A stretch of 21,110 nt of DNA from positions 1 through 21,110 of the IMG/VR virus record IMGVR_UViG_3300030329_005272, one strand, 5' to 3'. The DNA is from a virus. Position numbers and translations under genes: made by a program. Under the pieces are notes generated by a model. That model searched no databases. It saw nothing but the letters and a program-made list of their open reading frames with translations, and was not told where the DNA came from. Positions 391 to 21,033 of the stretch are shown in pieces. Position 1 is the stretch's first letter; each line of letters starts with the position of its first letter.

Positions 391-413
391 CGTTACGTGG
401 TAAGTGTTAAGTC

Positions 414-443
414 ATAATATTATCTTTACGGCGCAATTGTCAA
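414..443 (-). promoter_or_regulatory. sigma70-type promoter for the leftward 1-292 gene
   Basis: On the minus strand TTGACA (plus 438-443), an 18-base spacer, then TATTAT (plus 414-419). The -35 box lies inside the palindrome at 433-447. The arrangement recurs at 2722-2749. Confidence 0.5.
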
Positions 444-447
444 TTGC
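433..447. repeat. palindrome GCAATTG-T-CAATTGC, operator-like
   Basis: Perfect 7-bp arms around one base. It lies between the rightward promoter and the 460 start codon and contains the -35 box of the leftward promoter, so a bound protein could affect both transcripts. A near copy sits at 2739-2753 with one mismatch. The 22-base segments 432-453 and 2738-2759 differ at one base. Confidence 0.6.
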
Positions 448-459
448 ATTTGAGGGAAA

Positions 460-813
460 ATGTTAAAAATGTCAGAAAATCCTAAAAAGTTCCGAAAACC
501 GGTTGGTGCGGAGAAGCGTTTGGTTTGCGTAACCTATTCGACGATAGCTAGTTGGGTCGGTCTGACGAAATCTACGGTGGTTCAGTATGCTCATGCCGGC
601 CATTTCGATTCGAGTGATTTGGAATCAATAATCGGCTGGGTAAATGGCCGTAGAGCGAAGCTTGGATTGCCTTTGTTGGGGGATGATTCATCGGCTGAGG
701 CGTCGGTTTCTGGGTCCGTTGGTGTGGCGCCAGAGCGCCGAATTCCGGAATCGGGGTTGCCAGTTGTTTCAGGTGGTGGCTATGATCCGCTGACGGGTTC
801 GTTTTCGGGGTGA
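460..813 (+). CDS. small helix-turn-helix DNA-binding protein
   Basis: 117 residues. Residues about 25-65 contain a tyrosine-rich helix-turn-helix-like segment (YSTIASWVGLTKSTVVQYAH, then an acidic patch and GWVNGRRAKLGLP), which suggests sequence-specific DNA binding. The C-terminal 45 residues are Ser/Gly/Pro-rich and probably disordered. The start is ambiguous: GAGGG lies three bases before ATG 460 and twelve before an in-frame ATG at 469. The gene is four bases upstream of the 818 gene and probably co-transcribed with it from the 362-390 promoter. A palindrome at 433-447 could be an autoregulatory operator; that is inference. A decayed copy of its first codons and leader appears at 2738-2896. 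The exact family is not recognised. Confidence 0.72.
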   Translation: MLKMSENPKKFRKPVGAEKRLVCVTYSTIASWVGLTKSTVVQYAHAGHFDSSDLESIIGWVNGRRAKLGLPLLGDDSSAEASVSGSVGVAPERRIPESGLPVVSGGGYDPLTGSFSG

Positions 814-817
814 GTCA

Positions 818-1831
818 ATGTCTAAAAAAAAGACAGTCAAACACGGCAGGGGCGTTTCTAATGGAGTGGTCGGCTCTGAGGTTGGTGTGTCTGGTAGCGG
901 GGATACTTCTGACGATCGCGCTGAACTGGTCGGACACCCCTCAGGCGTAGGCGGCGAAGGTGCTTGCGTCGTTTCCTCGGCAACCATTTCCCCCGATAAC
1001 CCTAAAGACTCTAGAAGTAACTCCAGGCAGCCTAGAACCGATAGAGGCATTGAAGGCGGTTCGACGGACAGCGATGGCTCTGAATCTCGGGCTGAGGCTC
1101 GGGCTGAGGCTCGACCTGAATCTCGGGCTGAATCCGTTGAGAGGGAACGTGGGAACGTGCCATCGGACCCGGTGGCCGTCGACCTAGGCGATATCCCGCT
1201 CTCGGATCTACTACGCACGCGAGAGTCTAAATCTCAGGCTTCCAGGCGTTGGTATGAGGCCGGTCAGAAGAAAGAGACCGAGAATTACCGTGACGAAGTC
1301 CGCCGTGAGTGCCGGAAAGCTGGTATGGACCGGCAAGATTCTGTGGATGAGGCATGGCGTCGATGTCTGCTGGCGTTTCCTCCACCCGAACTACCAAAGG
1401 TAGAGATGCCGCCGATAGAAATACCAGAGCCAGTGTCTGAAACGTTCCAGGACGTCGATGCGGCGTTAGAAGAGGATGAGACGCCAGAAACCCCTAGGGG
1501 AATCACCGGTTTGGGCGAAATCCCCGAGGGTTGGCCGGCCCTACCAGCTAATGCAAACCTCTCCAAGGAAATAGCTTGGGTACAAGCCAATCGACTATTG
1601 ATAGTAACGGGCGATGAAGAGTGCGCCACCGTCGATCTCTCGGCCGCAAACACGCCAGCCCCTTCTTACGCAACCCTCGGCTGGCTCGAAACATCAATAC
1701 GGGCTTATAGCAAGTACTGCGATATCGCCGCGAAAGCCACGGCGAAGGATGAAGGCGAGAAAGAATTGGTACGCCGCGAGCGTAAATTAATTGCAACGGT
1801 CCGGTCAGTGCTCGAAGAAGTTGCCGGATGA
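818..1831 (+). CDS. hypothetical protein with conserved C-terminal domain
   Basis: 337 residues. The first ~130 are Ser/Gly/Asp-rich low-complexity sequence containing a short Arg-Ala-Glu repeat (about residues 90-106). The middle is charged and Pro-rich. The C-terminal ~105 residues (IPEGWPALPANANL, then EIAWVQANRLLIV, PSYATLGWLETSIR and a final charged helix) look like a conserved folded domain that I associate with planctomycete proteins of unknown function. GGGTGAG overlapping the upstream stop serves as ribosome binding site, and the gene follows the HTH gene by four bases, so the two form an operon. No catalytic motif is visible. The tract with both strands open around 770-1220 reflects repetitive codons; the plus-strand frame is preferred because of operon position and the conserved C-terminus. 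Confidence 0.75.
   Translation: MSKKKTVKHGRGVSNGVVGSEVGVSGSGDTSDDRAELVGHPSGVGGEGACVVSSATISPDNPKDSRSNSRQPRTDRGIEGGSTDSDGSESRAEARAEARPESRAESVERERGNVPSDPVAVDLGDIPLSDLLRTRESKSQASRRWYEAGQKKETENYRDEVRRECRKAGMDRQDSVDEAWRRCLLAFPPPELPKVEMPPIEIPEPVSETFQDVDAALEEDETPETPRGITGLGEIPEGWPALPANANLSKEIAWVQANRLLIVTGDEECATVDLSAANTPAPSYATLGWLETSIRAYSKYCDIAAKATAKDEGEKELVRRERKLIATVRSVLEEVAG
1086..1133 (+). repeat. four tandem 12-bp units within the 818 gene
   Basis: Units resemble CTCGGGCTGAGG. Units one and two are identical and three and four diverge slightly. In frame they encode an Arg-Ala-Glu-type tetrapeptide repeat in the disordered part of the protein, a likely site of length variation by slippage. Confidence 0.8.
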
Positions 1832-1912
1832 ACGCCAGGAATCCATTGCATTGACCGTCTCAAAGCCGTGCAACTCTTACCTAAGACTATACAACTTGCC
1901 TAGTGTGCCAAA

Positions 1913-1930
1913 AATGCAACGCGTTGCATT
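1913..1930. promoter_or_regulatory. perfect 18-bp palindrome, candidate operator
   Basis: AATGCAACGCGTTGCATT is its own reverse complement. It lies between the stop at 1831 and the ATG at 1989, about 60 bases before that start. An imperfect inverted repeat (TTGCG...GCGCAA) follows at about 1933-1951. No T-run follows, so an operator is likelier than a terminator. Confidence 0.55.
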
Positions 1931-1988
1931 CTTTGCGTGCCAATTGCGCAACAAAATTAAATATTTGGTCATTTTGCGGGAAATACTT

Positions 1989-2255
1989 ATGGCCGAGAAT
2001 GCATTTAGGTCAGTCGCAACTCGTAGAGCGATTGCGGTTGCTTCGCTTGTGCAAGAGTTTAGCAAGGGAGTGTGTGTATCCGTGTTTGTTGACTACGACC
2101 TAAATCTGGTTAGGTGGGTTTGTCACCACGAGAGTGCGCTGTCATCAATGGCCACTGAGGGTACGGTGACCATTGATGATTTGCTTTGTTCGGACGCCGA
2201 GATGCTGTCCGCAACTGCACAATCGCTGGCCGACGTTAGCTTGGGTCCAAGCTAA
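1989..2255 (+). CDS. small hypothetical protein, convergent with the next gene
   Basis: 88 residues. ATG 1989 is preceded by GCGGGAA about five bases upstream, so it is preferred over starts further upstream in the same frame, which would read through the operator-like palindrome. The protein starts MAENAFRSVATRRAIAVASL and has an alternating hydrophobic middle (VCVSVFVDYDLNLVRWVC) and an acidic tail. No motif is recognised. Its last seven codons lie within the palindrome shared with the convergent gene, so both products end in VSL-x-PS. This sharing and the sensible ribosome site are the main support that it is real. Confidence 0.55.
   Translation: MAENAFRSVATRRAIAVASLVQEFSKGVCVSVFVDYDLNLVRWVCHHESALSSMATEGTVTIDDLLCSDAEMLSATAQSLADVSLGPS
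2236..2255. terminator. 20-bp palindrome containing both convergent stop codons
   Basis: TTAGCTTGG, GT, CCAAGCTAA. The plus-strand TAA (2253-2255) and the minus-strand TAA (2236-2238) form the two ends. It could fold as a hairpin in both transcripts. No T-run is adjacent, so the terminator function is inferred from its position. Confidence 0.45.
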
Positions 2256-2628
2256 CCGACCAGTCGCTAACAAGTCCCAGGGATCCGTCACTGTACGTTA
2301 CCCATATTTTGCCTCGCTCGCTTGCCCATTGTATCAAAGCAGCTTTAGCGACTTTTGGCTGATCTCCCATTTCCACGCAATCGCATGCATCGAGTACTGT
2401 ATGCTGCTGGTCGATCGGGATTTCGGCAAGCATGGATTGCACTTCCTCATCTCCGGCAATCCATGCTTGCCACCACTCAATTGTGCCGCTGTCCGCCAAA
2501 TAGATACCACGGTCTGCGTCGTAAGTGATTCCATCGTCCTGCGCGGTTAGGTCGCGCAGGACGTCGCTTGCGTAAGATGTGTGGCATAGATTGATTGTCT
2601 CCCACGTTGTCTTGTTGATAATTTGCAT
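2236..2628 (-). CDS. hypothetical acidic protein, leftward
   Basis: 130 residues from ATG at 2628, chosen because AGGAGAGAG lies just upstream; a longer frame to 2742 would start inside the promoter. The product is acidic, with YDADRGIYLADSGTIEWWQA near residues 36-55 and a Trp-rich C-terminal region (IQWASERGKIWVTYSDGSLG). The short pattern G-x-Y-L...I-x-W-x-x-W-x-A also occurs in the small protein at 8180, a weak hint of a shared family. No function is recognised. Expression is probably strong from the consensus promoter at 2722-2749, with a leader of about 90 bases that can form a short GCACG/CGTGC hairpin before the ribosome site. Confidence 0.68.
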   Translation of the reverse strand: MQIINKTTWETINLCHTSYASDVLRDLTAQDDGITYDADRGIYLADSGTIEWWQAWIAGDEEVQSMLAEIPIDQQHTVLDACDCVEMGDQPKVAKAALIQWASERGKIWVTYSDGSLGLVSDWSVSLDPS

Positions 2629-2721
2629 TTTGACTCTCTCCTGCACGTACACGGCGTGCAACCGTGCTAGCCACAGTAGCCGACTAGCTGGCTGATAATA
2701 ACGCTCTAGTGTTGGCGTCCC

Positions 2722-2749
2722 ATTATACCTTATACGTCGCAATTGTCAA
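2722..2749 (-). promoter_or_regulatory. consensus sigma70 promoter for the 2236-2628 gene
   Basis: On the minus strand TTGACA (plus 2744-2749), a 16-base spacer, then TATAAT (plus 2722-2727). Both boxes match the consensus exactly. The -35 lies in an imperfect copy of the 433-447 palindrome, so the same regulator may act here. Confidence 0.7.
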
Positions 2750-2766
2750 TTACATTTGATGAAAAG

Positions 2767-2896
2767 GTGATAAAAATAAAAAAAATAAAAAAACGTCCGA
2801 AAACCTGCTGATGCAGTTGCCGGGTCCGCATCAGCGTCTGTTGTAGTTGATGCAATGGGTGACCTATGGGCCACTGGAGTGTCTGGTGGTCAGTGA
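2767..2896 (+). pseudogene. decayed partial copy of the start of the 460 HTH gene
   Basis: The segment after the duplicated palindrome aligns with the leader and first codons of the gene at 460: the CAATTTGA-type lead-in, a GTGATAAAAAT counterpart of ATGTTAAAAAT, then a CCGAAAACC counterpart of the codons for R-K-P. A poly-A run puts the start and the later codons in different frames. After the shift a short open stretch (RKPADAVAGSASASVVVDA...) continues to TGA at 2894-2896. The HTH part is absent. I infer a truncated, frameshifted duplicate. Confidence 0.4.
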
Positions 2897-3122
2897 CGGG
2901 CTGCCAGTCATCACTCGGAGCTCCTGTCCGCAACTGCCAAATGCCGACGTCTAGCACGAGGTTTCCGGAATTCCAACCAGACCCCCACCCCCGTCGAGTG
3001 GGACTCCAGTACGTACATCCCTCCCACCCCACATCAAATTTTCAGTCACGCCCCGGTGTCCATCCCTAACCTATACCGGCCTTGCATTCCTGAGTGCTCT
3101 GGATGTGGATGCCATCCTATTT

Positions 3123-3156
3123 CAGCTTTAATGATGTACAAACAAGTGTAAAGCTG
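3123..3156. repeat. inverted repeat CAGCTTTA / TAAAGCTG
   Basis: Eight-base arms separated by 18 bases (3131-3148). It lies near the start of the repeat-rich gene-free region. Function unknown. Confidence 0.5.
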
Positions 3157-3206
3157 GGCATCATATATGCTTTGGTCTTTGTTGTTTTCACAGCCGACAT
3201 ACGAGT

Positions 3207-3331
3207 AGCTGTCTGAAATGAGCTGTCTGAAACTGACTGCTTGTTTTCAGACAGTCAATGGATTGCGATAGCCTGCAATTCATAGCTTCCTTGCGGCTGT
3301 CTGTGCTGTCTGACTGACGAATTTTCAGACA
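3207..3331. repeat. cluster of CTGTCTG(AAA) motifs, iteron-like
   Basis: AGCTGTCTGAAA occurs twice 14 bp apart (3207-3218, 3221-3232). TTTTCAGACAG appears on the opposite strand (3244-3254). CTGTCTG occurs at 3297-3303 and 3306-3313, and TTTTCAGACA at 3322-3331. Six sites in 125 bp with mixed orientation suggest protein-binding sites for a regulator or initiator. Confidence 0.6.
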
Positions 3332-3401
3332 CCACTCCTTTAGGAGATGTGCTTTAGTTTTCGGTTAAGTTAGTTATTTTGCAGATCATCAGATCGAGCT
3401 T

Positions 3402-3537
3402 GCACGAAATATTGCCAACAATCGTGCCACGAAAAAAATCTTTCGTGCTGCGAAAAAATTCTGCTCTAGGTTTCCCGGTGCGAGATCACCTCTTCTCTTG
3501 CACGAATTCCATCCCGGCGAAACCGTTCTTTTCGTGC
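3402..3537. repeat. cluster of GCACGAA / TTCGTGC motifs
   Basis: GCACGAAA at 3402-3409, TCGTGC and CACGAAA around 3422-3436, TTTCGTGC at 3441-3448, GCACGAA at 3500-3506 and TTTTCGTGC ending at 3537. The sites occur in both orientations with A-runs between them. This is distinct from the CTGTCTG cluster just before it. Confidence 0.6.
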
Positions 3538-3580
3538 ATTCTCCGCTTAGTATCTTTGGTGTGGTTGTATTTTCTTCAAC

Positions 3581-4224: not shown

Positions 4225-4329
4225 ATGATCGATGGAATTGAATCAATGCTGATGGCCTTGGCTTTGGTCTTAGGGAAAGAAGAGGACTGGTTGGTTCGTC
4301 AGGTGAATTCCATTAGAGGGCAGAGATGA
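4225..4329 (+). CDS. possible 34-residue leader peptide/small ORF
   Basis: ATG 4225 opens a 34-codon frame (MIDGIESMLMALALVLGKEE, then a Trp/Arg-containing tail) whose TGA overlaps the ATG of the next gene as ATGA. This is the same coupling used by most genes of the chain. A weak GGTG lies four bases upstream of the start. It is the first frame after the operator-covered promoter. The evidence is the overlap and the position, not similarity. Confidence 0.4.
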   Translation: MIDGIESMLMALALVLGKEEDWLVRQVNSIRGQR

Positions 4330-4628
4330 GACGAGTAGAGATTACTCCCGGCCAGCAGTTCGGGGTGTTTACGGTTATTCGAGAGGCTTCCCGCTCGGGA
4401 GAGAAGCGAATGGTTCATTGCCGCTGCTCTTGCGGTAATACGAGGATCGTCCGGCTCGGAAGTCTTCGGTCAGGCCACACTCAGAGCTGTGGAGAGTGTG
4501 GATACCTTTCGTATAAGGGTAAGAAGAAGTCGGTTTCAGCTTGGTCCAAAGAGCACAAGATCAATGAGAGCACTTTGCGTTCTCGGCTCAAGAACATGTC
4601 ACTTAAAGAAGCATTGGAGAAGAAATGA
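4326..4628 (+). CDS. HNH-less homing-endonuclease-type DNA-binding protein
   Basis: 100 residues. The N-terminal half (GQQFGVFTVI near 9-18, then a CRCSCG zinc-knuckle-like cluster near 32-37 and SCGEC near 54-58) matches the N-terminal domain of the HNH enzyme nested in the terminase intein ([20 protein letters not shown]). The C-terminal 32 residues (SVSAWSKEHKINESTLRSRL, then SLKEAL) match that enzyme's final helix-turn-helix segment ([26 protein letters not shown]). The nuclease core between them, about 95 residues in the other protein, is missing. It is therefore probably a DNA-binding protein, either a domesticated regulator or a deletion remnant. The coding frame is intact, coupled by ATGA on both sides, and lies directly behind the 4150-4179 promoter. 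Confidence 0.75.
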   Translation: MRRVEITPGQQFGVFTVIREASRSGEKRMVHCRCSCGNTRIVRLGSLRSGHTQSCGECGYLSYKGKKKSVSAWSKEHKINESTLRSRLKNMSLKEALEKK

Positions 4629-5231: not shown

Positions 5232-5918
5232 ATGACAGCAATTGTATTGATGCTTGCTCTGGCTCAGGAGACTGTAGTTGCTAAAGTCGAGGCTCCGGAT
5301 TCCGTGAAGCTTGGAGAACCTTTGATACTCGACGCCACCGGAAGCATCGGAGAAGTAATGCTCTGGGAAGCCTGCAACATCGGAGAGGAAAGATATCGTC
5401 TTTTCAGCGATGGCAAGGTAATGGCAGTTTGGCCCGAGACGGCCGGCCAGCTTGATTTCATACTGTTCGTTGCCGCCGGCAAGAAGGCAGAGACCAGCAG
5501 AGTCAAGGTGATGGTGACCGGCACTGGAGAGCCGCCAAGGCCAGCGCCGCCTTCCCCACCGAAAACGCCTTCATTCGGAATGGACAAGAAGGTTCTTGCT
5601 TGGTATCGAGATATTGAAGGAGACGAAGATCACCTGGAAGTAGCCAAGATTGCCGCGACGTTCGTTACCGTGGCAGGCATGGTTGCTTCTGGAGCTTTCG
5701 GAGATGAACCAGACATGGCCAAGATTGCACCAGTCATTTCGAATTTGAATCAGGCTGCAATCCCTGAAGGCAGAAGGGATGAATGGGCTTCTAAGGTTCT
5801 CGGTAAGTTTGCGAATGAGCTTTCTGAGTTGATTACCAACGGCAAGCTAAAGACCAAACAGCAATACTCGGCGCTGTTTACGGAAGTAGCCAAGGGCTTA
5901 GCTCAGGGTGCAGCATGA
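5232..5918 (+). CDS. secreted protein with PKD/Ig-like domain
   Basis: 228 residues from ATG 5232, which has GGAT nine bases upstream; an in-frame ATG at 5223 abuts that site. The N-terminus is a short signal-like segment (MTAIVLMLALAQETVVA). Residues about 20-95 (APDSVKLGEPLILDATGS...) look like a PKD or Ig-like beta-sandwich. A Pro-rich linker (EPPRPAPPSPPKTPS) leads to a helical C-terminal domain of about 110 residues. Such architectures are common in planctomycete secreted proteins. A role in envelope interaction or lysis fits the metalloprotease and secreted gene nearby, but is inferred. The gene ends in an ATGA overlap with the methyltransferase. Confidence 0.7.
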   Translation: MTAIVLMLALAQETVVAKVEAPDSVKLGEPLILDATGSIGEVMLWEACNIGEERYRLFSDGKVMAVWPETAGQLDFILFVAAGKKAETSRVKVMVTGTGEPPRPAPPSPPKTPSFGMDKKVLAWYRDIEGDEDHLEVAKIAATFVTVAGMVASGAFGDEPDMAKIAPVISNLNQAAIPEGRRDEWASKVLGKFANELSELITNGKLKTKQQYSALFTEVAKGLAQGAA

Positions 5919-6886
5919 AACCATGCTACGATAACCAGGGCATCGAGCTATACCACGGCGACTGCTTGCAGGTACTCAAAGAGCTACCAGCCGAGAGCGT
6001 GCATTGTGTCGTGACCAGCCCGCCATACTGGGGCCTGCGGGATTATGGGGCTGACGGTCAGTTAGGATTGGAAGAGACGCCGGCCGATCACGTGGCAAAT
6101 ATGGTGGAGGTGTTTCGGGAGGTGCGGCGAGTACTGCGCGAGGACGGCACGCTTTGGTTGAATTACGGGGACAGCTATACCGGCGGGAAAATCGGCAGAG
6201 ATGATAAAAACACGGGCGGAGGTTTGTACGATGGTCAGCAAAAAGGATGGACAGGCAAAGAAACTAGGCAGCGGCCAGTACCCCCCGGCCTAAAGCCTAA
6301 AGACCTCTGCGGAATCCCGTGGCGCGTGGCCTTTGCCCTACAGGCAGACGGCTGGTGGCTGCGGCAGGATATTATCTGGCACAAGCCAAACCCGATGCCG
6401 GAAAGCGTTACCGACCGCTGCACAAAAGCGCATGAATACATTTTTCTGATGACTAAGGCGGCCAGGTATTACTACGATGAAGACGCAATAAGGGAAAAAA
6501 CTGGTAGTGAGATGAGTAGTCGGGAATATGACACAAAAACAGCCAGCGGCGCGGCTTGGAAATCAGGCGGAGTAAAAAACTACGCTGGGGCTAATAAAAA
6601 AGATGGCGGACGGAGCCACCCAAACGGACGCAACCGCCGCAGCGTCTGGACAATCGCCACGGCACCCTACCCCGGCGCACACTTTGCCACCTTTCCACCC
6701 AAGCTAATCGAGCCTTGCATCATGGCTGGATGCCCTGAAGGCGGCACGGTTCTAGATCCGTTTCTAGGTAGCGGCACCACGGGAGCAGTAGCCCGGAAAA
6801 ACGGCTGCAAGTTTATCGGCATCGAGTTAAACGAGGACTATTTACAGTTAGCAGTAAAACGATTTACACAGAAAGTGCTTTTCTAG
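5915..6886 (+). CDS. beta-class DNA N4-cytosine/N6-adenine methyltransferase
   Basis: 323 residues. The catalytic motif TSPPYWGLRDYG (about 34-45, motif IV) precedes the S-adenosylmethionine-binding motif LDPFLGSGTTGAVARKNGC (about 283-301, motif I), the order that defines beta-class amino-methyltransferases. An N-terminal ELYHGDCLQVLKELP strand and a C-terminal FIGIELNEDYLQLA complete the fold. It probably methylates phage DNA to protect it from host restriction or to mark it. No restriction enzyme is adjacent, so it is an orphan. The target base and site cannot be read from the sequence. The start overlaps the upstream stop as ATGA. Codon use looks somewhat richer in GGC/CGG than its neighbours, hinting at separate acquisition. 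Confidence 0.92.
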   Translation: MKPCYDNQGIELYHGDCLQVLKELPAESVHCVVTSPPYWGLRDYGADGQLGLEETPADHVANMVEVFREVRRVLREDGTLWLNYGDSYTGGKIGRDDKNTGGGLYDGQQKGWTGKETRQRPVPPGLKPKDLCGIPWRVAFALQADGWWLRQDIIWHKPNPMPESVTDRCTKAHEYIFLMTKAARYYYDEDAIREKTGSEMSSREYDTKTASGAAWKSGGVKNYAGANKKDGGRSHPNGRNRRSVWTIATAPYPGAHFATFPPKLIEPCIMAGCPEGGTVLDPFLGSGTTGAVARKNGCKFIGIELNEDYLQLAVKRFTQKVLF

Positions 6887-6902: not shown

Positions 6903-7736
6903 ATGAGCATAGTACCGGAAGGCCCTATTGGTGATGTTGAACTATCCAGATCGCTATGGCTGGCTGGTTATTTCGAGCCTTGCAATCCAAAAACTATGTT
7001 TCCCGATACTCCGCTGATAGAGTTTTCCCAGAAGAGAAATATAGACGATGCTGTAGCCCTTTATCAGTCAGCATATAATTCCGAGTTAGTTGTTGATGGA
7101 CATGCTGGGCCTCTGACTAGGGACCATGTAAATTCTAGAAGTTGTCGAGTCCCCGATAGAATGATGGAAGCTCAGTCTGCTTGGCCTCGTTCGTGCATGA
7201 AAGAGATCACTTGCAGCCATCGGCTTGCTGGCCTCAAGCCCCTTTCATCCGAAGAAGAAAACCAAGCATGGCTCGAAGCTCTTTCTAACATCAGCGCCGT
7301 AAGCGGGATCAATTTGGTAAACACCGACGATCATGAACGATCGCATATTTACGCCGATGTAGGCTCAATGGGAAGAGGTACTCTGGCCTGGAGCTACCTT
7401 CCCAATGGGAACTGTTCCGATCGCATGGAGCAACAATACAATCGATCGAAGAACTGGTCCTACGCTCTGCTGTTGGAAGTGATGGTTCACGAACTGCTTC
7501 ACGCTTGCGGACTAGGTCATTCCGACGATCAGAACTCGATAATGCATCCAACGGTCACCGGTCGGTTCACGTCTCCTCAGACATGGGAAATCCAAGAGCT
7601 TCAAGAAAGATACGGAGAACCCGAGACACCTGGACCGTCTGGCGGGCAGAAGGTAGGCAGCTTTGTTTTCAACGGTAAGACCTACGACATTGTTGATCCG
7701 GAGAAGTCAACAGACGTAATAGGAGGCTTGATATGA
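6903..7736 (+). CDS. matrixin-like zinc metalloprotease with prodomain
   Basis: 277 residues; AGGGGG lies five bases upstream of the ATG. Residues about 35-80 resemble a peptidoglycan-binding-type prodomain (helical, with VVDGHAGPLTRDHV). The segment SRSCRVPD (Cys81) resembles the cysteine switch PRCGVPD that keeps matrix metalloproteases latent. The catalytic domain has HELLHACGLGHSDD (His196, Glu197, His200, His206) and the Met-turn SIMHP (Met214), followed by IQELQERYGEP, as in family M10A. A C-terminal extension (about 245-277, VGSFVFNGKTYDIVD) is unassigned. It probably cleaves envelope or surface protein, during lysis or entry. There is no obvious signal peptide. It is coupled by ATGA to the next gene, which has one. 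Confidence 0.88.
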   Translation: MSIVPEGPIGDVELSRSLWLAGYFEPCNPKTMFPDTPLIEFSQKRNIDDAVALYQSAYNSELVVDGHAGPLTRDHVNSRSCRVPDRMMEAQSAWPRSCMKEITCSHRLAGLKPLSSEEENQAWLEALSNISAVSGINLVNTDDHERSHIYADVGSMGRGTLAWSYLPNGNCSDRMEQQYNRSKNWSYALLLEVMVHELLHACGLGHSDDQNSIMHPTVTGRFTSPQTWEIQELQERYGEPETPGPSGGQKVGSFVFNGKTYDIVDPEKSTDVIGGLI

Positions 7737-8586: not shown

Positions 8587-11403
8587 ATGCCTGGGAAGGG
8601 TAGTCCCTACTACGATCTGGTTCCTCGGGACGTCATCGAAAACCTCAAGTGGCGTATTGCTTGCCGAGAACGCGCGATTGAGGACATTGAATTTCGGGAA
8701 TGTCTTATTCAGGCGTGCGAAGAAGACCTTCTCTTTTTTATGGGGTTCGCCTGCATCGGAAAGGGGACTCGCGTCGTAACTGACAGAGGACCAGTCCCAA
8801 TCGAAGATGTTGAAGTGGATGATCGTGTCTGGGACGGCGCTGAATGGGTCTCTCACGAAGGGGTATTGCACAAGGGTCGTAGGGCCAGTATATTCGCATA
8901 CCAAATCAACGTTACTCCTGACCATAAGATTTGGACGAAAAATGGCTGGAAAATCGCAAGTGAAAGACATGACCGGGAAGACGTTCGGCTACCTAACGGT
9001 TATTCGGAGAGATGGGAGTTACCGAAACACTACGAGGGCAGCTTGGTTGTGCCAGTGCAAGTGCGGAAAGCAGAGGACGGTTGCTGGAGACAACCTGAGA
9101 CTGGGGAAGAGCACGAGCTGCGGTTGCAAGTCGAACGAATCCAAGGTTACGCACGGGAAAACCGGGACGAGGGCTTTCAATACTTGGAACGGGATGCTCC
9201 AGCGATGCACCAATCCGAACAACCAAGCCTGGGACGATTATGGTGGTCGAGGAATAACAGTCTGCGAAAGCTGGTTCAAGTTCGAGAACTTTTACGAAGA
9301 CATGGGCGATCCTCCAGAAAACAGAAGTCTGGACAGGATAGACAACGATCAAGGGTATTCACCCGACAATTGTCGTTGGGCAACTCGTTCTCAGCAGAAC
9401 TCGAATCAGAGGAAACGGCGCGTGAAGCTGTTTCAGACTGCAAAGGGTCTAATGAGTATAGCTCAGATAGCAGAAGAGGCAGGCATAACAGCTCAGTCTG
9501 CGGGATACAGGCTGAGAGCGGGTTATTCCCCGCAGGAGCTTCTTCTTCCGTCGCACTCTACACGGAAGTCTACGACTTGTTGAATTGCGGCACTCGCCAG
9601 TGCTTCACCGTACTTGATGCCGATGATAGGCCCCTGCTGGTTCACAACTGCTGGGCTTACGATCCGCGTGCGAAGCATAAAGTTGTTCCGTTCATACCAT
9701 GGCCTCATCAAGAATATGTTTTCCTGAGTATCGATGAAGCGATAGATATTGCTCAGGACAACGAAGAGACTCTGGACGTTCTCGTTGATAAGTCCCGCGC
9801 ACAGGGCGGCACGTTCGGCTACCTTTGGGTTGATCTTCGCCGTTGGCTTCGAGACAAGATGTTTCTTGCCGGCTACGTGACTCGTAATGAAAAGCTAGTC
9901 GACTCCAAGACCGACGCCAATACCGTGCTTTGGAAGATTCAGTTTGCTTTAGACATGCTTCCCGTGTGGATGGTTCCGGAATACGAACGATCGCTGAACC
10001 AGCACACATTCATCAACAAGGACAATGGTTCGACTCTGGTAGGCTTCGCTGCTGGCCAAGACGTGGCCGCTGGTGGCCGTGCGACGGTCTTTACGATGGA
10101 TGAAGCAGGTGCCAAGGACTTCGTTGCTGGGGGCAAAGACGAGGACGTAATGGAGTCTCTACACGATGTGACCAACTGTCTGCGCCTCGTTTCCGCTCGT
10201 TACATCGACCAGGGTGTGTTTCACGAGGCGTGCGAAGCTGGTGGTGGTGAAGGCGGCATGCATCTAATACTGGACTGGAAAGATCACCCGGTTCACGGCA
10301 AGAACAAATACATCGTCAAGGATGGCAAGGCCAAGGCCGTCAAGGAAGAAGAAGAGGCAGCGGTAGATGAATACATCTCCAGCAAGCCGGAGTTAAAGAA
10401 GAACCTTGAGAGGAAAGGCTTTAAGTTTGAGGACTGCATCCGAAGTCCTTGGTACGACATGCGTTGTTTGAGGAAAACGGCGCGGCCGCAGTTGATTGCC
10501 TCTCAGCTCGACAGAAATCCCCGCGGAGCTGTTGGTAAAGTATTTCAGTCGCATTTCCTAGAGGAGATGAAGGAGAAGCACGCTAAGCCACCAGTGTGGG
10601 TTGGGAAGCCTGTGTTCGACAAAGAGACACTTGATCTGATTGGGCTCATTAAGCAGGATGATGGCCCGTTGGCTCTATGGTTTGATCCTGGACCGGGAAA
10701 CATGCCGCCGATGGGGCCGTTTACGCTCGGGAGCGATATTGCCCTTGGTGGAGAGTCTGCCTACGCTAGTAACTCGGTTACTTCTGGAATTGACGATCGA
10801 ACTGGAGAGCAAGTTCTGGAGTACACCGTCAAGGGGATGGTTCCTGTCAACTTTGCTGACATGACGGTTGGTCTTGCAATTTGGATGCGTCGGGCACTTC
10901 TTGCGTGGGAAGATTCTGGGATGTCCGGAAGCTTCGCAAAGCAAGTTATGGAAGTCAGGTATTACGGAAACGTTTACTACCGAGAGGTTTCAGCACTTGG
11001 TCAGGAACGTAAGTCAAACAAGCCCGGTTGGCCTTGTAGGGACGCTGACAAAGCCGAGATGTTTGATAATTTCACACTTGGAATGCAAGATGGAAGATAC
11101 ACGCCTCGTTCCTTCGAGCTGATCAAGGAGTGCGGAGAGTACGAGTGGGATAAAGGAAAGATCATTCATGCTCCAACTCAAAACCATGGTGCGAAGGACA
11201 AGAACCACGGCGATCGTTGTATTGCTGCTGCTGGTGCTTATTGGATTTATTCACAAGATAAGCTAAAACACAAATCGATCGACATCGATCTAGAGCCTGA
11301 AACAGCCGAGTACGGCAGTTTCAAATGGAGAGAGCAGCAGGAAATGATTTATAACAAAGTCGGAAGCCCGGAATATTCAATTCGAGATTTACTAAGGAGT
11401 TGA
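8587..11403 (+). CDS. terL: phage terminase large subunit interrupted by an intein
   Basis: 938 residues as translated. Residues 56-354 are an intein, leaving a 639-residue terminase. GGAG lies seven bases upstream of the ATG. After the intein come IPWPHQEY (about 370-377, adenine-motif region), a Walker A-like [11 protein letters not shown] (402-412), a Walker [10 protein letters not shown] (about 501-509), then a nuclease domain with GSDIALGG (Asp717), WEDSG, and a C-terminal HGDRC acidic site. The protein is the DNA-packaging motor and headful or cos nuclease acting at the portal. The intein sits upstream of the ATPase core, between GFA and CWAYDPR, not at the Walker A site where many ATPase inteins sit. 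Packaging therefore depends on protein splicing. The 58-residue gene at 11405 and the portal follow immediately. Confidence 0.93.
8752..9648 (+). mobile_element. intein in terL (299 residues)
   Basis: The element starts at Cys56 with [20 protein letters not shown] (block A). Block B is [15 protein letters not shown], with the TxxH residues Thr110 and His113. Block F is [17 protein letters not shown] (about 326-342) and the end is LLVHN followed by Cys as the first C-extein residue. All standard splicing positions are present: first Cys, block B Thr/His, penultimate His, terminal Asn and Cys+1. About 200 residues between blocks B and F are Arg/Ser/Glu/Gln-rich with no recognisable domain. The homing endonuclease lies in another frame of that same DNA (8942-9583). 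Confidence 0.92.
8942..9583 (+). CDS. HNH homing endonuclease nested out of frame in the intein
   Basis: 213 residues in the +1 frame relative to the intein. The N-terminal domain ([17 protein letters not shown] at 37-42, SCGC at 59-62) is zinc-knuckle-like. The HNH core runs from about 70 to 157: [20 protein letters not shown], then [12 protein letters not shown], then [22 protein letters not shown]-terminal helix-turn-helix segment (about 170-202) probably contacts the target. It should cut intein-less terL alleles so that repair copies the intein in. The frame is open further upstream to ATG 8807, but homology begins near residue 11 of this start, which has GGA six bases before it. It starts just after block B and stops within block F. 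The linker-like composition of the other frame suggests that this frame is the one under protein-level constraint. Confidence 0.88.
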
Positions 11404-18084: not shown

Positions 18085-18384
18085 ATGCGTGGCCTTATAA
18101 ATCGAGACGCGGCATTTGTAGCCAAGGCTCATGAACCAGCAGCTAACACTGCGGCAGTCATAACCTTGGCTGCTGAAGAGGGTGTTCGCCACGTTGTTGA
18201 CCGTGTTTCTGGCGGTTACAAGGCAGCACCAACTAACGTTCTGCTGACGATACAGTCAACAGTTCATGGAACGACTGGTCCGAAAGGGCTGAGTCCAAAT
18301 TTTGGGAATTTTCCCTTTGATTACCAACCGGGGCGGAGGCGTCCCCAGCACAAGGAGACATCATGTCTGGTCACCGTGTTTTGA
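18085..18384 (+). CDS. small beta-type phage protein, apparently C-terminally truncated
   Basis: 99 residues; AGGAG lies before the ATG. Residues 1-75 (EPAANTAAVITLAAEEGVRH, VVDRVSGGYKAAPTNVLLTI) follow a known small phage pattern in which NTAAVVTLAA...HVVD...Y...PTGGLLTI is followed by more strands. Here, after NFPFDYQPG, the frame runs into RRRPQHKETSCLVTVF, basic and unlike the rest, and ends 22 bases inside the next gene. A frameshift or deletion near 18330 that removed the last strands is likely. The protein may still fold. Confidence 0.6.
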   Translation: MRGLINRDAAFVAKAHEPAANTAAVITLAAEEGVRHVVDRVSGGYKAAPTNVLLTIQSTVHGTTGPKGLSPNFGNFPFDYQPGRRRPQHKETSCLVTVF

Positions 18385-18767
18385 ATGATTTGCTGCGTGC
18401 GTTTGTTGATGGTCCCGGAAAAGTGTCTCCGGTTGCTAATGACGATGGCAGTGGCGATGCAGTTCTTGGAGACAACAGGCTTGTTCAGTTTGCCGATGTT
18501 AACTGGGATGGTGACGCTAACCACATCATCACCCTGCCTTCTCCCCGTCCAGGCATGGTTGTGGTCATTGCCGGAAAGACAACGGGTGGAGAGCTTCGGA
18601 CGAATGACCCTGCGACTGTTGGTATTAACGGTGGTACGGGAGCGAATGCCGAGTCAGCTATCGCTGCGAACCAGATGGTAATCTGCATCTGCAATTCAAC
18701 GACTGACTGGCGAGCCTTTACGATCGCCGCCAATGGTACCACAGCCGGTCTAGAAGCCGCATCTTGA
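18363..18767 (+). CDS. virion-type protein with glycine-rich repeat end
   Basis: 134 residues; AAGGAG lies before the ATG. The N-terminus is helical (MSGHRVLNDLLRAFVDG). The rest (HIITLPSPRPGMVVVIAGKT, GGTGANAESAIAANQMVICI) is beta-strand and Gly/Thr-rich, with the LP-x-P-G-x-x-V-V-V motif seen in small phage tail or fibre-associated proteins. The precise role is unknown. It overlaps the end of the truncated-looking upstream gene and is followed by a hairpin. Confidence 0.6.
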   Translation: MSGHRVLNDLLRAFVDGPGKVSPVANDDGSGDAVLGDNRLVQFADVNWDGDANHIITLPSPRPGMVVVIAGKTTGGELRTNDPATVGINGGTGANAESAIAANQMVICICNSTTDWRAFTIAANGTTAGLEAAS

Positions 18768-18773
18768 TAAAAA

Positions 18774-18803
18774 CCCGACAAAGTGCAGCAACACTCTGCC
18801 GGG
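18774..18803 (+). terminator. imperfect hairpin after the 18363 gene
   Basis: CCCGACAAAGTG (18774-18785) and CACTCTGCCGGG (18792-18803) form 10 of 12 pairs around a 6-base loop, seven bases after the stop codon. No T-run follows, so it may be a weak terminator or processing site. The rest of 18768-18886 has no gene that I can support. Confidence 0.4.
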
Positions 18804-18886
18804 ATGTGAACGGCAAATTGGTTGATCGAACAACCGTTCATAAGGTTAATCGAGTATGCTCTTCGAAAGTGGACATAGTTTTTTCG

Positions 18887-19108
18887 ATGAATCTGGAAAA
18901 TGCCCTGCTCAAGGCGGTTTACGTTCTTTCTGGTGTTATAGTTGTCCTTGCTGGGGCGATTGTGACAATGTGGAAAATACACCGAGCAAGGGAAGACGAA
19001 ATCCATGCTGACCACCGCAAGGAACGTGAGGAACTGGAATGCGCTCATAAGCGAACTAGAGACGAATTCATCAGCGTTCTGCTCAAGATTATTGGGGAGC
19101 AGGGATAG
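18887..19108 (+). CDS. one-helix membrane protein with charged helical tail
   Basis: 73 residues from ATG 18887. A TTG start at 18764 would add 41 residues but overlaps the hairpin and has no ribosome site; the chosen ATG also has only a weak one. Residues about 8-32 (LLKAVYVLSGVIVVLAGAIV...) are a single transmembrane segment. The rest (HRAREDEIHADHRKEREELE...) is a highly charged probable coiled coil. Topology resembles inner-membrane spanins or small holin-like lysis proteins, but no family motif is present. It directly precedes the receiver-domain gene by 16 bases, so the two may be co-expressed. Confidence 0.6.
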   Translation: MNLENALLKAVYVLSGVIVVLAGAIVTMWKIHRAREDEIHADHRKEREELECAHKRTRDEFISVLLKIIGEQG

Positions 19109-19124
19109 GACGAAAGATCCAGTC

Positions 19125-19448
19125 ATGCTTCTTGTGATTGAGGACTCACCAACACAGGTATCTATGATTTCGCATTTGGCTGAAAAACATGGAGCCAACT
19201 TTGTTGTTGTCCAAAATTGGATGCAGGCAGTTTTGCATCTGGCGAATGTTTCTCTTGTGTTGATTGATTGGGTTCTTTCTGATGGCGATAATGCTGAAAG
19301 TTGTGGTGCCTTGGATTACTTGAGAAAGAACGAGATACCGCATGCCATTTGGTCTGATTTCGACTTTTCGGATAGACAGTTCGATTGCGAGATCGTTGGC
19401 AAGCCGGACGTTCAGCGTTTGAATTCTTTAATTGAAGAATACTGCTAG
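19125..19448 (+). CDS. single-domain receiver (CheY-like) protein
   Basis: 107 residues from ATG 19125, the start that places the first beta strand MLLVIEDSP at the N-terminus. The receiver-domain positions are present: acidic pair Glu6-Asp7 after strand 1, phospho-acceptor Asp48 in SLVLIDWVLSDG, Ser77 in AIWSD, and Lys93 followed by Pro in VGKPD. There is no output domain. Such proteins take phosphate from histidine kinases and act by protein contact, as in chemotaxis. In a phage tail-gene neighbourhood it might tap or divert host signalling; that is inference. The ribosome site is weak (GGA about 14 bases before). Degeneration cannot be excluded because helix 4 and strand 5 look short. Confidence 0.75.
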   Translation: MLLVIEDSPTQVSMISHLAEKHGANFVVVQNWMQAVLHLANVSLVLIDWVLSDGDNAESCGALDYLRKNEIPHAIWSDFDFSDRQFDCEIVGKPDVQRLNSLIEEYC

Positions 19449-19464
19449 AGGATAGAGGGGAGTG

Positions 19465-21033
19465 ATGATCAAGAATCTACAGTTCCCTCTGCTGGGTGTC
19501 CGAAGACGCGGAAACTATTCTAAGGAAACGGATAGTCGTGGGCTTTTCCCTGCGGCCTGGGGTGCAAACGTTCGCAGCGAGGACGCATTACAGCGAAGGC
19601 TTCGTGGCGGTAGCCGTCCAGGGCTCACGAAGGTTGTCGCGGATGACTTCGGCTCAACCATATCGGATATGGTTTCGATCGACGTATCCGACGCGTCTGG
19701 TAATGCTCGGCCAATTCTGTTTGTCCTGGTGGATTCAGCAATCAAAACTCTTGACGGAGCCACTGTTTCATCCCCAGTGGCATACCTAACGAATGAGTCT
19801 GGAGATACGCTCACAGACGCATCCACGAACAAGATAACGGTTAGCTCTGGTACAGCTCCGAGTTCCGGGTTTCTTGTCTGCGGCCAGCAGCATGTGTTTG
19901 CCATAAACACCAGCGGCGTTGTGAAGATGGAGCCAAAGACTGGAAAGACTGACTCGCTGGTTGCTTCGAGCGGTTCGATTCCACTGAGCTGTACGTTTGG
20001 TGCTGTTTACAGGGATCGACTGTTTCTCAGCGGGCAAGACAATGCCATCTACGCTAGCCGAATGGGAGACTTCACGAACTGGAACTTCGGAGATCACTTC
20101 GAAGACTCCCGTAGAGCGATGGCGATTCAGTTGTCTCACAGCTCCGAAGTTGGCGAGCCGCCGACGGCGTTGGCGTCTTGCATGGATCAGTATTTGATTG
20201 CAGCAAGTCGACGTTCACTGTGGTTGATCCAGGGAGACCCAGCAGCAGGCGGGTCCCTTCGGCAGATTTCAGATGAGGTCGGAATAATATCGAGCAGGGC
20301 ATGGGTTAAGTTCAGCAATATGCTGATGTTCCTAGCCGAAGACGGAATCTACAAAGTGAATGTTGACGGTTCCGGTCTAGGATTGATGACCGATTCGATA
20401 CCAGATGAGTTGAGGCATGTAGACACTTCAACGAAAACCGTCAATTTGGACTGGGATGAGGATCGCAAGGCGGTTCACGTTTATCTTCGGACGTCAGGCG
20501 GTTCCGATACACATTGGGTGTATGAAGTGGATAGCCAGTCTTTCTGGCCGGTCAGGCTTCAGGACTCTCATTCTCCCTTGGTGACATGTCGGCATGCAGG
20601 AGATTTGCTTTTGGCTGGGAGTGATGGTTTCATCCGAAAGACATCCGGAAACGACGATGACGGATCGAACATCGAAAGCCATGTTGCAATCGGTCCAATG
20701 AGAGCTGCCGGCCCGAATGAGTTTGGGCGCATTCTGAATTTGCATGCCAGCATGGCCAACGGTGGCGGTACGGTAAACTGGAGAGTTGTGACCGGAAACA
20801 CTGCCGAAGAGGCCGCGGAAAACGCTAAACTTGCGATCGAAGCTTTTCAATCTGGCAGCAGCTATAGCTCATACGTTGCCTCTGAGGGCACTTGGTCTAG
20901 TGGTCGCGCTGTAATGTCCTATCCTCGCGTGCGGGCCGTCTGGGCTTGTCTGTGGCTTCAGAGCACAGCAAAATGGGCATTCGAGACAGTTTCAATGGAG
21001 TCTACGGCAAGTGGACGCTGGAGAGGTGCCTAG
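19465..21033 (+). CDS. beta-propeller tail nozzle/stabilisation-type protein
   Basis: 522 residues from ATG 19465, with GAGGGG just upstream; the in-frame GTG at 19462 abuts it. The N-terminus (LQFPLLGVRRRGNYSKETDS) and the opening LRGGSRPGLTKV pattern are typical of podovirus tail proteins that carry a beta-propeller. Internal segments recur in the same order as propeller blades: RDRLFLSGQDNAIYASRMGD, FTNWNFG, then MDQYLIAASRRSLWLIQGDP and MLMFLAEDGIYKV. By analogy with P22 gp10 and T7 gp12 it forms the tail nozzle or plugs the connector. Family assignment is by pattern and context. The next gene starts three bases later. Confidence 0.72.
   Translation: MIKNLQFPLLGVRRRGNYSKETDSRGLFPAAWGANVRSEDALQRRLRGGSRPGLTKVVADDFGSTISDMVSIDVSDASGNARPILFVLVDSAIKTLDGATVSSPVAYLTNESGDTLTDASTNKITVSSGTAPSSGFLVCGQQHVFAINTSGVVKMEPKTGKTDSLVASSGSIPLSCTFGAVYRDRLFLSGQDNAIYASRMGDFTNWNFGDHFEDSRRAMAIQLSHSSEVGEPPTALASCMDQYLIAASRRSLWLIQGDPAAGGSLRQISDEVGIISSRAWVKFSNMLMFLAEDGIYKVNVDGSGLGLMTDSIPDELRHVDTSTKTVNLDWDEDRKAVHVYLRTSGGSDTHWVYEVDSQSFWPVRLQDSHSPLVTCRHAGDLLLAGSDGFIRKTSGNDDDGSNIESHVAIGPMRAAGPNEFGRILNLHASMANGGGTVNWRVVTGNTAEEAAENAKLAIEAFQSGSSYSSYVASEGTWSSGRAVMSYPRVRAVWACLWLQSTAKWAFETVSMESTASGRWRGA

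Follow-up and report, generated by a model that had tools for sequence, protein, structure and literature searches.

Receivers can lose helix alpha4, and until CckA-Rec the known cases were mainly Rec-only or accessory receivers; the helix is reported to be missing from the Rec-only proteins Sma0114 and SdrG, and also from CckA-Rec (PMC9981736). Receivers that serve as phosphorelay intermediates leave the alpha4-beta5-alpha5 face unused and need no allosteric change (PMC9981736). In Caulobacter, LovK and the single-domain receiver LovR drain phosphate from MrrA and act as a phosphate sink (PMC5964349). Receiver genes are also carried by phages, as in Alteromonas phage V22, where the CheY-like gene CDS-30 is listed among the auxiliary metabolic genes (PMC7289586).

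Here we analyse an open reading frame that a sequence-only reading had singled out as a stand-alone receiver (REC) among phage tail genes. It lies in a window of viral DNA (the whole stretch that was analysed) that is a complete IMG/VR record of 21,110 bases, classed as linear, a class that in IMG/VR often denotes a fragment. The virus belongs to a large set of uncultured phages, whose portal proteins are 61-74% and capsid proteins 69-80% identical. A contig of the MAG 'Proteobacteria bacterium isolate Glo_12' (L131) was considered as a host assignment and rejected, since the contig appears to be wholly viral. The features around the receiver gene are as follows.

18363-18767, + strand: small, conserved protein of the structural module at the left border of the junction (homologues: 15 loci, plus 45 in a second set)
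18887-19108, + strand: small protein of 73 residues whose N terminus forms a single membrane segment and whose charged tail is coiled-coil-like (resembling holins or spanins in anatomy only)
19125-19448, + strand: stand-alone receiver (REC) gene, 107 residues (ATG start; profile, alignment and model evidence)
19465-21033, + strand: tail or virion structural protein, right border of the junction (weak PHROG matches to virion and tail proteins)

The receiver gene and its phosphorylation site

The gene product is MLLVIEDSPTQVSMISHLAEKHGANFVVVQNWMQAVLHLANVSLVLIDWVLSDGDNAESCGALDYLRKNEIPHAIWSDFDFSDRQFDCEIVGKPDVQRLNSLIEEYC. Scored with the phage's own codon usage, taken from a reference set that excluded this gene itself, the frame appears to be coding, with 0.18 per codon against -0.22 to +0.02 for the other five frames. 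Its codon usage in frame fits that of the phage's late genes, its G+C content is 0.43 compared with 0.51 for the window, and on the same strand it is separated by 16 nt from the preceding gene and by 16 nt from the tail gene.

Sequence comparison by itself gives modest to weak, yet consistent, evidence for a receiver. The expectation that profile searches would identify a receiver held in kind, in that every NCBIfam and PDB match is a response regulator or receiver, but not in score: the single-sequence Pfam search matched PF00072 over residues 3-63 only, at 17.4 bits (E 0.005), which is below the curated cut-off of 30.2 bits. All four NCBIfam matches are response regulators (including PhoB, DgcR and CpxR; best E 0.0016), and a phmmer search of PDB sequences returned eight, every one a response regulator or receiver domain. 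The top PDB match is 3gt7, the receiver of a 'sensor protein' (E 4e-4), and the alignment to 2msw, which we take to be EL_LovR, extends through the Lys-Pro. A profile of 34 reference receivers, 30 from one bacterial replicon and four classical ones, scored the protein at 20 bits (E 2.5e-8 as a single test), and hhalign against four classical receivers gave a probability of 85%. The best PHROG is phrog_731 (E 0.0019), which other viral receivers match too. Identity to aligned receivers is 12-27%. In our judgement, the structural evidence presented below and the conserved residues outweigh the sub-cut-off Pfam score.

No close homologue of the protein was found in the phage, plasmid or viral-contig collections searched: tblastn against 50,697 phage records gave nothing at E 0.1, tblastn against plasmids gave weak receiver matches only, and a scan of viral contigs for close relatives gave no match. 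A search of viral contigs for the pattern VEDSPTQ returned nine chance matches, none of which (0/9) is a receiver, and was discarded. Many phage-labelled database matches to ordinary receivers trace back to bacterial contigs given a phage label, or to phage assemblies that are unannotated and probably contaminated, so we draw no frequency of phage receivers from them.

The coordinates and the five residues named in the sequence-only reading proved to be correct. In the alignment, E6 and D7 (the acidic pair), D48 (the phospho-acceptor), S77 (the switch residue) and K93-P94 occupy canonical receiver positions, and when the protein is aligned with 23 viral-contig receivers, L3, D7, D48 and K93 do not vary, and E6 and P94 hardly do. 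The spacing of 29 from D48 to S77 is normal (27-31 in the reference receivers). The C-terminal pair of motifs, a hydrophobic strand with S/T and then K-P, arose at receiver-like spacing in 251 of 200,000 shuffles. Profile dynamic-programming alignment alone could not place S77 and K93; applied to the C-terminal half, it paired C60-N69 (CGALDYLRKN) with the GADDYLxKP motif, which we rejected as spurious. The placement given here is the one on which mafft, the D-to-S/T spacing and the AF2 model concur. Judged from these alignments, the phosphate-accepting site is complete, and phosphorylation itself is a prediction.

The fold model and the beta4-beta5 region

An AF2 model of the protein, built from a 24-row alignment, has a mean pLDDT of 93.1 and a pTM of 0.85, and its topology is the five-stranded alternating beta/alpha fold of receivers, with strands beta1-5 and helices alpha1, 2, 3 and 5. 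The input alignment consisted of other receivers and may help the fold along; the model departs from most of that alignment in having no alpha4. Prediction without an alignment was poor (pLDDT 65), and the single-sequence model was discarded. Over its whole length, the AF2 model aligns in VIA-align with Z 14.9 to 8svz (KdpE-REC) and 14.8 to DivK (1m5t), and the Foldseek list consists mainly of receivers; other viral receivers also appear in the structure search. Structure prediction, with Z values of about 15 to solved receivers, thus bears out the receiver assignment, and alignment and model agree with the earlier description of a receiver that stands alone, has no output domain and keeps its phosphorylation site intact.

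That description overlooked the loss of helix alpha4. The spacing from S77 to K93 is 16, compared with 22 in 34 of 34 reference receivers. Since this S/T-to-K distance is short while the D-to-S/T distance is normal, the deletion would fall on alpha4. In the model, beta4 (73-77) leads to beta5 (89-92) with no helix at 78-88, so that a six-residue deletion appears to remove helix alpha4, an element that is usual in receivers and not strictly defining. The aromatic switch position of beta5 (K minus 3) is I90, and no residue on beta5 is aromatic. As the model has neither alpha4 nor a beta5 aromatic, the usual output face is probably missing, with the phosphate-accepting site kept. Shortened linkers also occur in some other receivers from viral contigs (L190, L196 and L197).

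The junction before the tail gene and other features of the window

Across this virus group, the junction that precedes the tail gene (18768-19464) varies in its accessory genes. Homologues of its two border genes are adjacent in most relatives, being 9-15 nt apart in 37 of the 45 measurable loci, and in other relatives the junction holds glycosyltransferase, methyltransferase or sulfotransferase-like genes (L083, L090, L101, L087, L200 and L202). Homologues of the tail protein were found in 15 loci and in 78 loci, at 28-61% identity. A comparable receiver is absent at the junction from about 130 related viral loci: a PF00072 search of 50 whole related records found one stop-broken, sub-threshold stretch only, while the same search recovers the window's own receiver gene at E 2.5e-4, and a receiver-profile search of 78 further loci around the tail gene found no receiver. 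In the late module of this phage, the receiver stands alone as an accessory gene at a variable junction.

The 50 records and 78 loci support the view that the gene is unusual at this place. Its location among tail genes, as first described, is right in that a tail gene follows it and a membrane/coiled-coil gene precedes it, but the site is an accessory junction and not a part of the tail module. The rarity claimed for such proteins in the structural module of phages likewise applies to the relatives at this junction, but phages with receiver proteins are known (V22 and the PHROG families).

The membrane/coiled-coil gene immediately upstream (18887-19108) matched no family above chance in the Pfam, NCBIfam and PHROG searches. 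Because L200-L203 and L210 have a similar single-membrane-segment coiled-coil gene immediately ahead of their tail gene, the gene in the window is probably the phage's own. The idea that this gene and the receiver form one unit was dropped, since the same anatomy occurs at that place in these five loci without a receiver.

The strongest observation beyond the receiver finding lies in the terminase large subunit gene (8587-11403), which contains an apparent intein (8755-9648; CIGKGTRVV...LLVHN, then C) overlapped in the +1 frame by an open reading frame (8807-9583) for a protein resembling HNH homing endonucleases. The two frames are both recognisable in eight of eight related intein loci, offset by +1 in every case and 36-46% identical each; these loci (L004/L111, L018/L091, L025, L026 and L077/L125) lie partly on the same contigs, and in one of the eight the HNH-like frame is interrupted by a stop. 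In Pfam, the intein has a weak Hint_2 match only and the HNH-like frame has no match. Such dual coding of an intein and an endonuclease looks unusual.

Upstream of the terminase, the window also encodes a metzincin-type protease (6903-7736; Matrixin, E 5e-9) that may also have a peptidoglycan-binding region and for which the first set of related loci contained no homologue. Positions 5915-6886 encode a CcrM-like DNA methyltransferase (NCBIfam E 1e-31, under the cut-off), and 4326-4628 a protein of 100 residues that matches part of the phage HNH endonuclease family phrog_374 (E 7e-16) and has matches in 68 related loci. Among other viral contigs, a 15-kb one (L185) encodes three receiver proteins within 3.2 kb (392-3542), one of them overlapping a holin-like coiled-coil/membrane gene, and another (L195, 1926-3391) encodes a stand-alone receiver near phage head-tail adaptor genes.

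Possible roles and comparison with known systems

The reading we favour, at somewhat less than an even chance, is that the virus has gained, in the form of an accessory gene, a single-domain response regulator that draws phosphate from host histidine kinases as a sink or decoy. We favour it because such receivers are mostly phosphorelay intermediates or sinks, although some alpha4-poor receivers are relay hubs and not sinks. The phage would have acquired the gene at a variable junction of its late module. The protein, made during infection, would dock on host histidine kinases or phosphotransfer proteins by its alpha1 and beta5-alpha5 surfaces, and a phosphoryl group would pass from these to Asp48. 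Having no alpha4-beta5-alpha5 output face, it would hand no signal onward and would, late in infection, damp a host phosphorelay, for example one that governs a response to stress, the envelope response or attachment; this assumes a stoichiometry at which the protein is abundant enough to drain a kinase. Interference with a host phosphorelay, already proposed in the sequence-only reading, is our best guess, and the control of host motility or cell-cycle kinases that it mentioned is possible. A strongly selected role in the virus group is less likely, since the receiver is absent from relatives. A bolder form of the sink proposal, in which a 'stripped' viral receiver with its output face deleted is a dedicated phosphate sink against host phosphorelays late in infection, and so a new class of phage anti-signalling protein, seems to us rather unlikely.

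A regulator that binds a specific host protein and a neutral passenger are serious rivals to the sink. A specific regulator in the manner of DivK, CpdR or CheY would, phosphorylated or not, bind one host protein (a kinase, protease adaptor, motor or biosynthetic enzyme) and alter its activity by contact and not by draining phosphate. This is a common mode of single-domain receivers, and it agrees with the complete acidic pocket and with the presence of DivK among the closest structures (1m5t, Z 14.8). However, the alpha4-beta5-alpha5 face that CheY-like regulators use is incomplete, and the beta5 aromatic for Y-T coupling is missing; we regard this explanation as unlikely. The gene might instead be a recently acquired passenger, a host-derived receiver, gained at this junction, that is folded and perhaps phosphorylatable, with no selected role. 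Its occurrence in 0 of about 130 related loci, a junction that is empty in most relatives and a G+C content (0.43) lower than that of the window (0.51) all favour a passenger. Yet the catalytic positions are all intact, the codon usage matches the phage's late genes and the spacing on each side is a tight 16 nt, and these properties suggest expression of the gene and its retention over some time. A passenger is, in our estimate, quite unlikely.

Two further explanations concern functions outside host signalling. The receiver could be packaged with, or act on, a neighbouring tail or membrane protein, for example in the timing of lysis. Its gene does have a membrane/coiled-coil gene directly on one side and a tail gene on the other, and in the unrelated viral contig L185 a stand-alone receiver gene overlaps a holin-like gene (phrog_689, E 9e-4); but relatives build the same tail module without a receiver and the L185 arrangement is a single case, which makes a virion or lysis role very unlikely. 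An enzyme of the cRec type, a divergent receiver that processes cyclic phosphates (ADP-ribose or RNA 2',3'-cyclic ends) and does not signal, is highly improbable. Such proteins are present in jumbo phages (PMC7824862), and one cRec protein occurs far down the viral structure list, at rank 50. Nonetheless, two-component receivers are the best matches in Pfam, in NCBIfam and among PDB sequences, no cyclic-phosphate-processing REC model matched in Pfam at E 10 (a search in which HMMER filters drop most weak matches), and the genes on either side are those of a membrane/coiled-coil protein and a tail protein and not NAD/ADP-ribose or RNA-ligase genes, as judged from the part of the genes scanned in this 21-kb fragment.

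The phage protein resembles stand-alone or Rec-only receivers of PF00072 in its modelled fold, acidic pair, phospho-Asp, Ser/Thr and Lys-Pro, and differs from PF00072 receivers in its sub-cut-off score, its 12-27% identity, the putative alpha4 deletion and the lack of a beta5 aromatic. With Sma0114, SdrG, MrrA, LovR and CckA-Rec it has in common that these are single or intermediary receivers, in several of which alpha4 is weak or absent and which do not need an output face for phosphotransfer (PMC9981736, PMC5964349). Unlike the Rec-only phosphorelay proteins, it has a shortened beta4-beta5 linker, is encoded by a virus and has no known partner kinase; it also lacks the beta4 motif of FATGUY-type proteins (MrrA, SdrG and Sma0114), reading A74-I-W-S-D-F-D-F81 instead. 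Phage-borne receiver proteins are represented by V22 CDS-30 and by PHROG 731, 5982, 20458 and 8810, and receiver families include several PHROGs that carry no label. The protein PIT4 of Pseudomonas phage LSL4 acts on several host histidine kinases (PMC10714779); it is comparable by its published function only, and is the product of an early gene, whereas the receiver gene sits in a late module. Phages are known to block host histidine kinases with unrelated proteins such as PIT4, and a few carry receiver genes. A phage receiver that keeps its phosphate-accepting site and has no output face would allow a concrete and inexpensive test of the idea that phages drain host phosphorelays with receiver decoys, and it bears on whether alpha4-less receivers in general act as sinks. 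Compared with all of these systems, the phage receiver is a divergent and unusual example of a type of protein that is known in bacteria and, occasionally, in phages.
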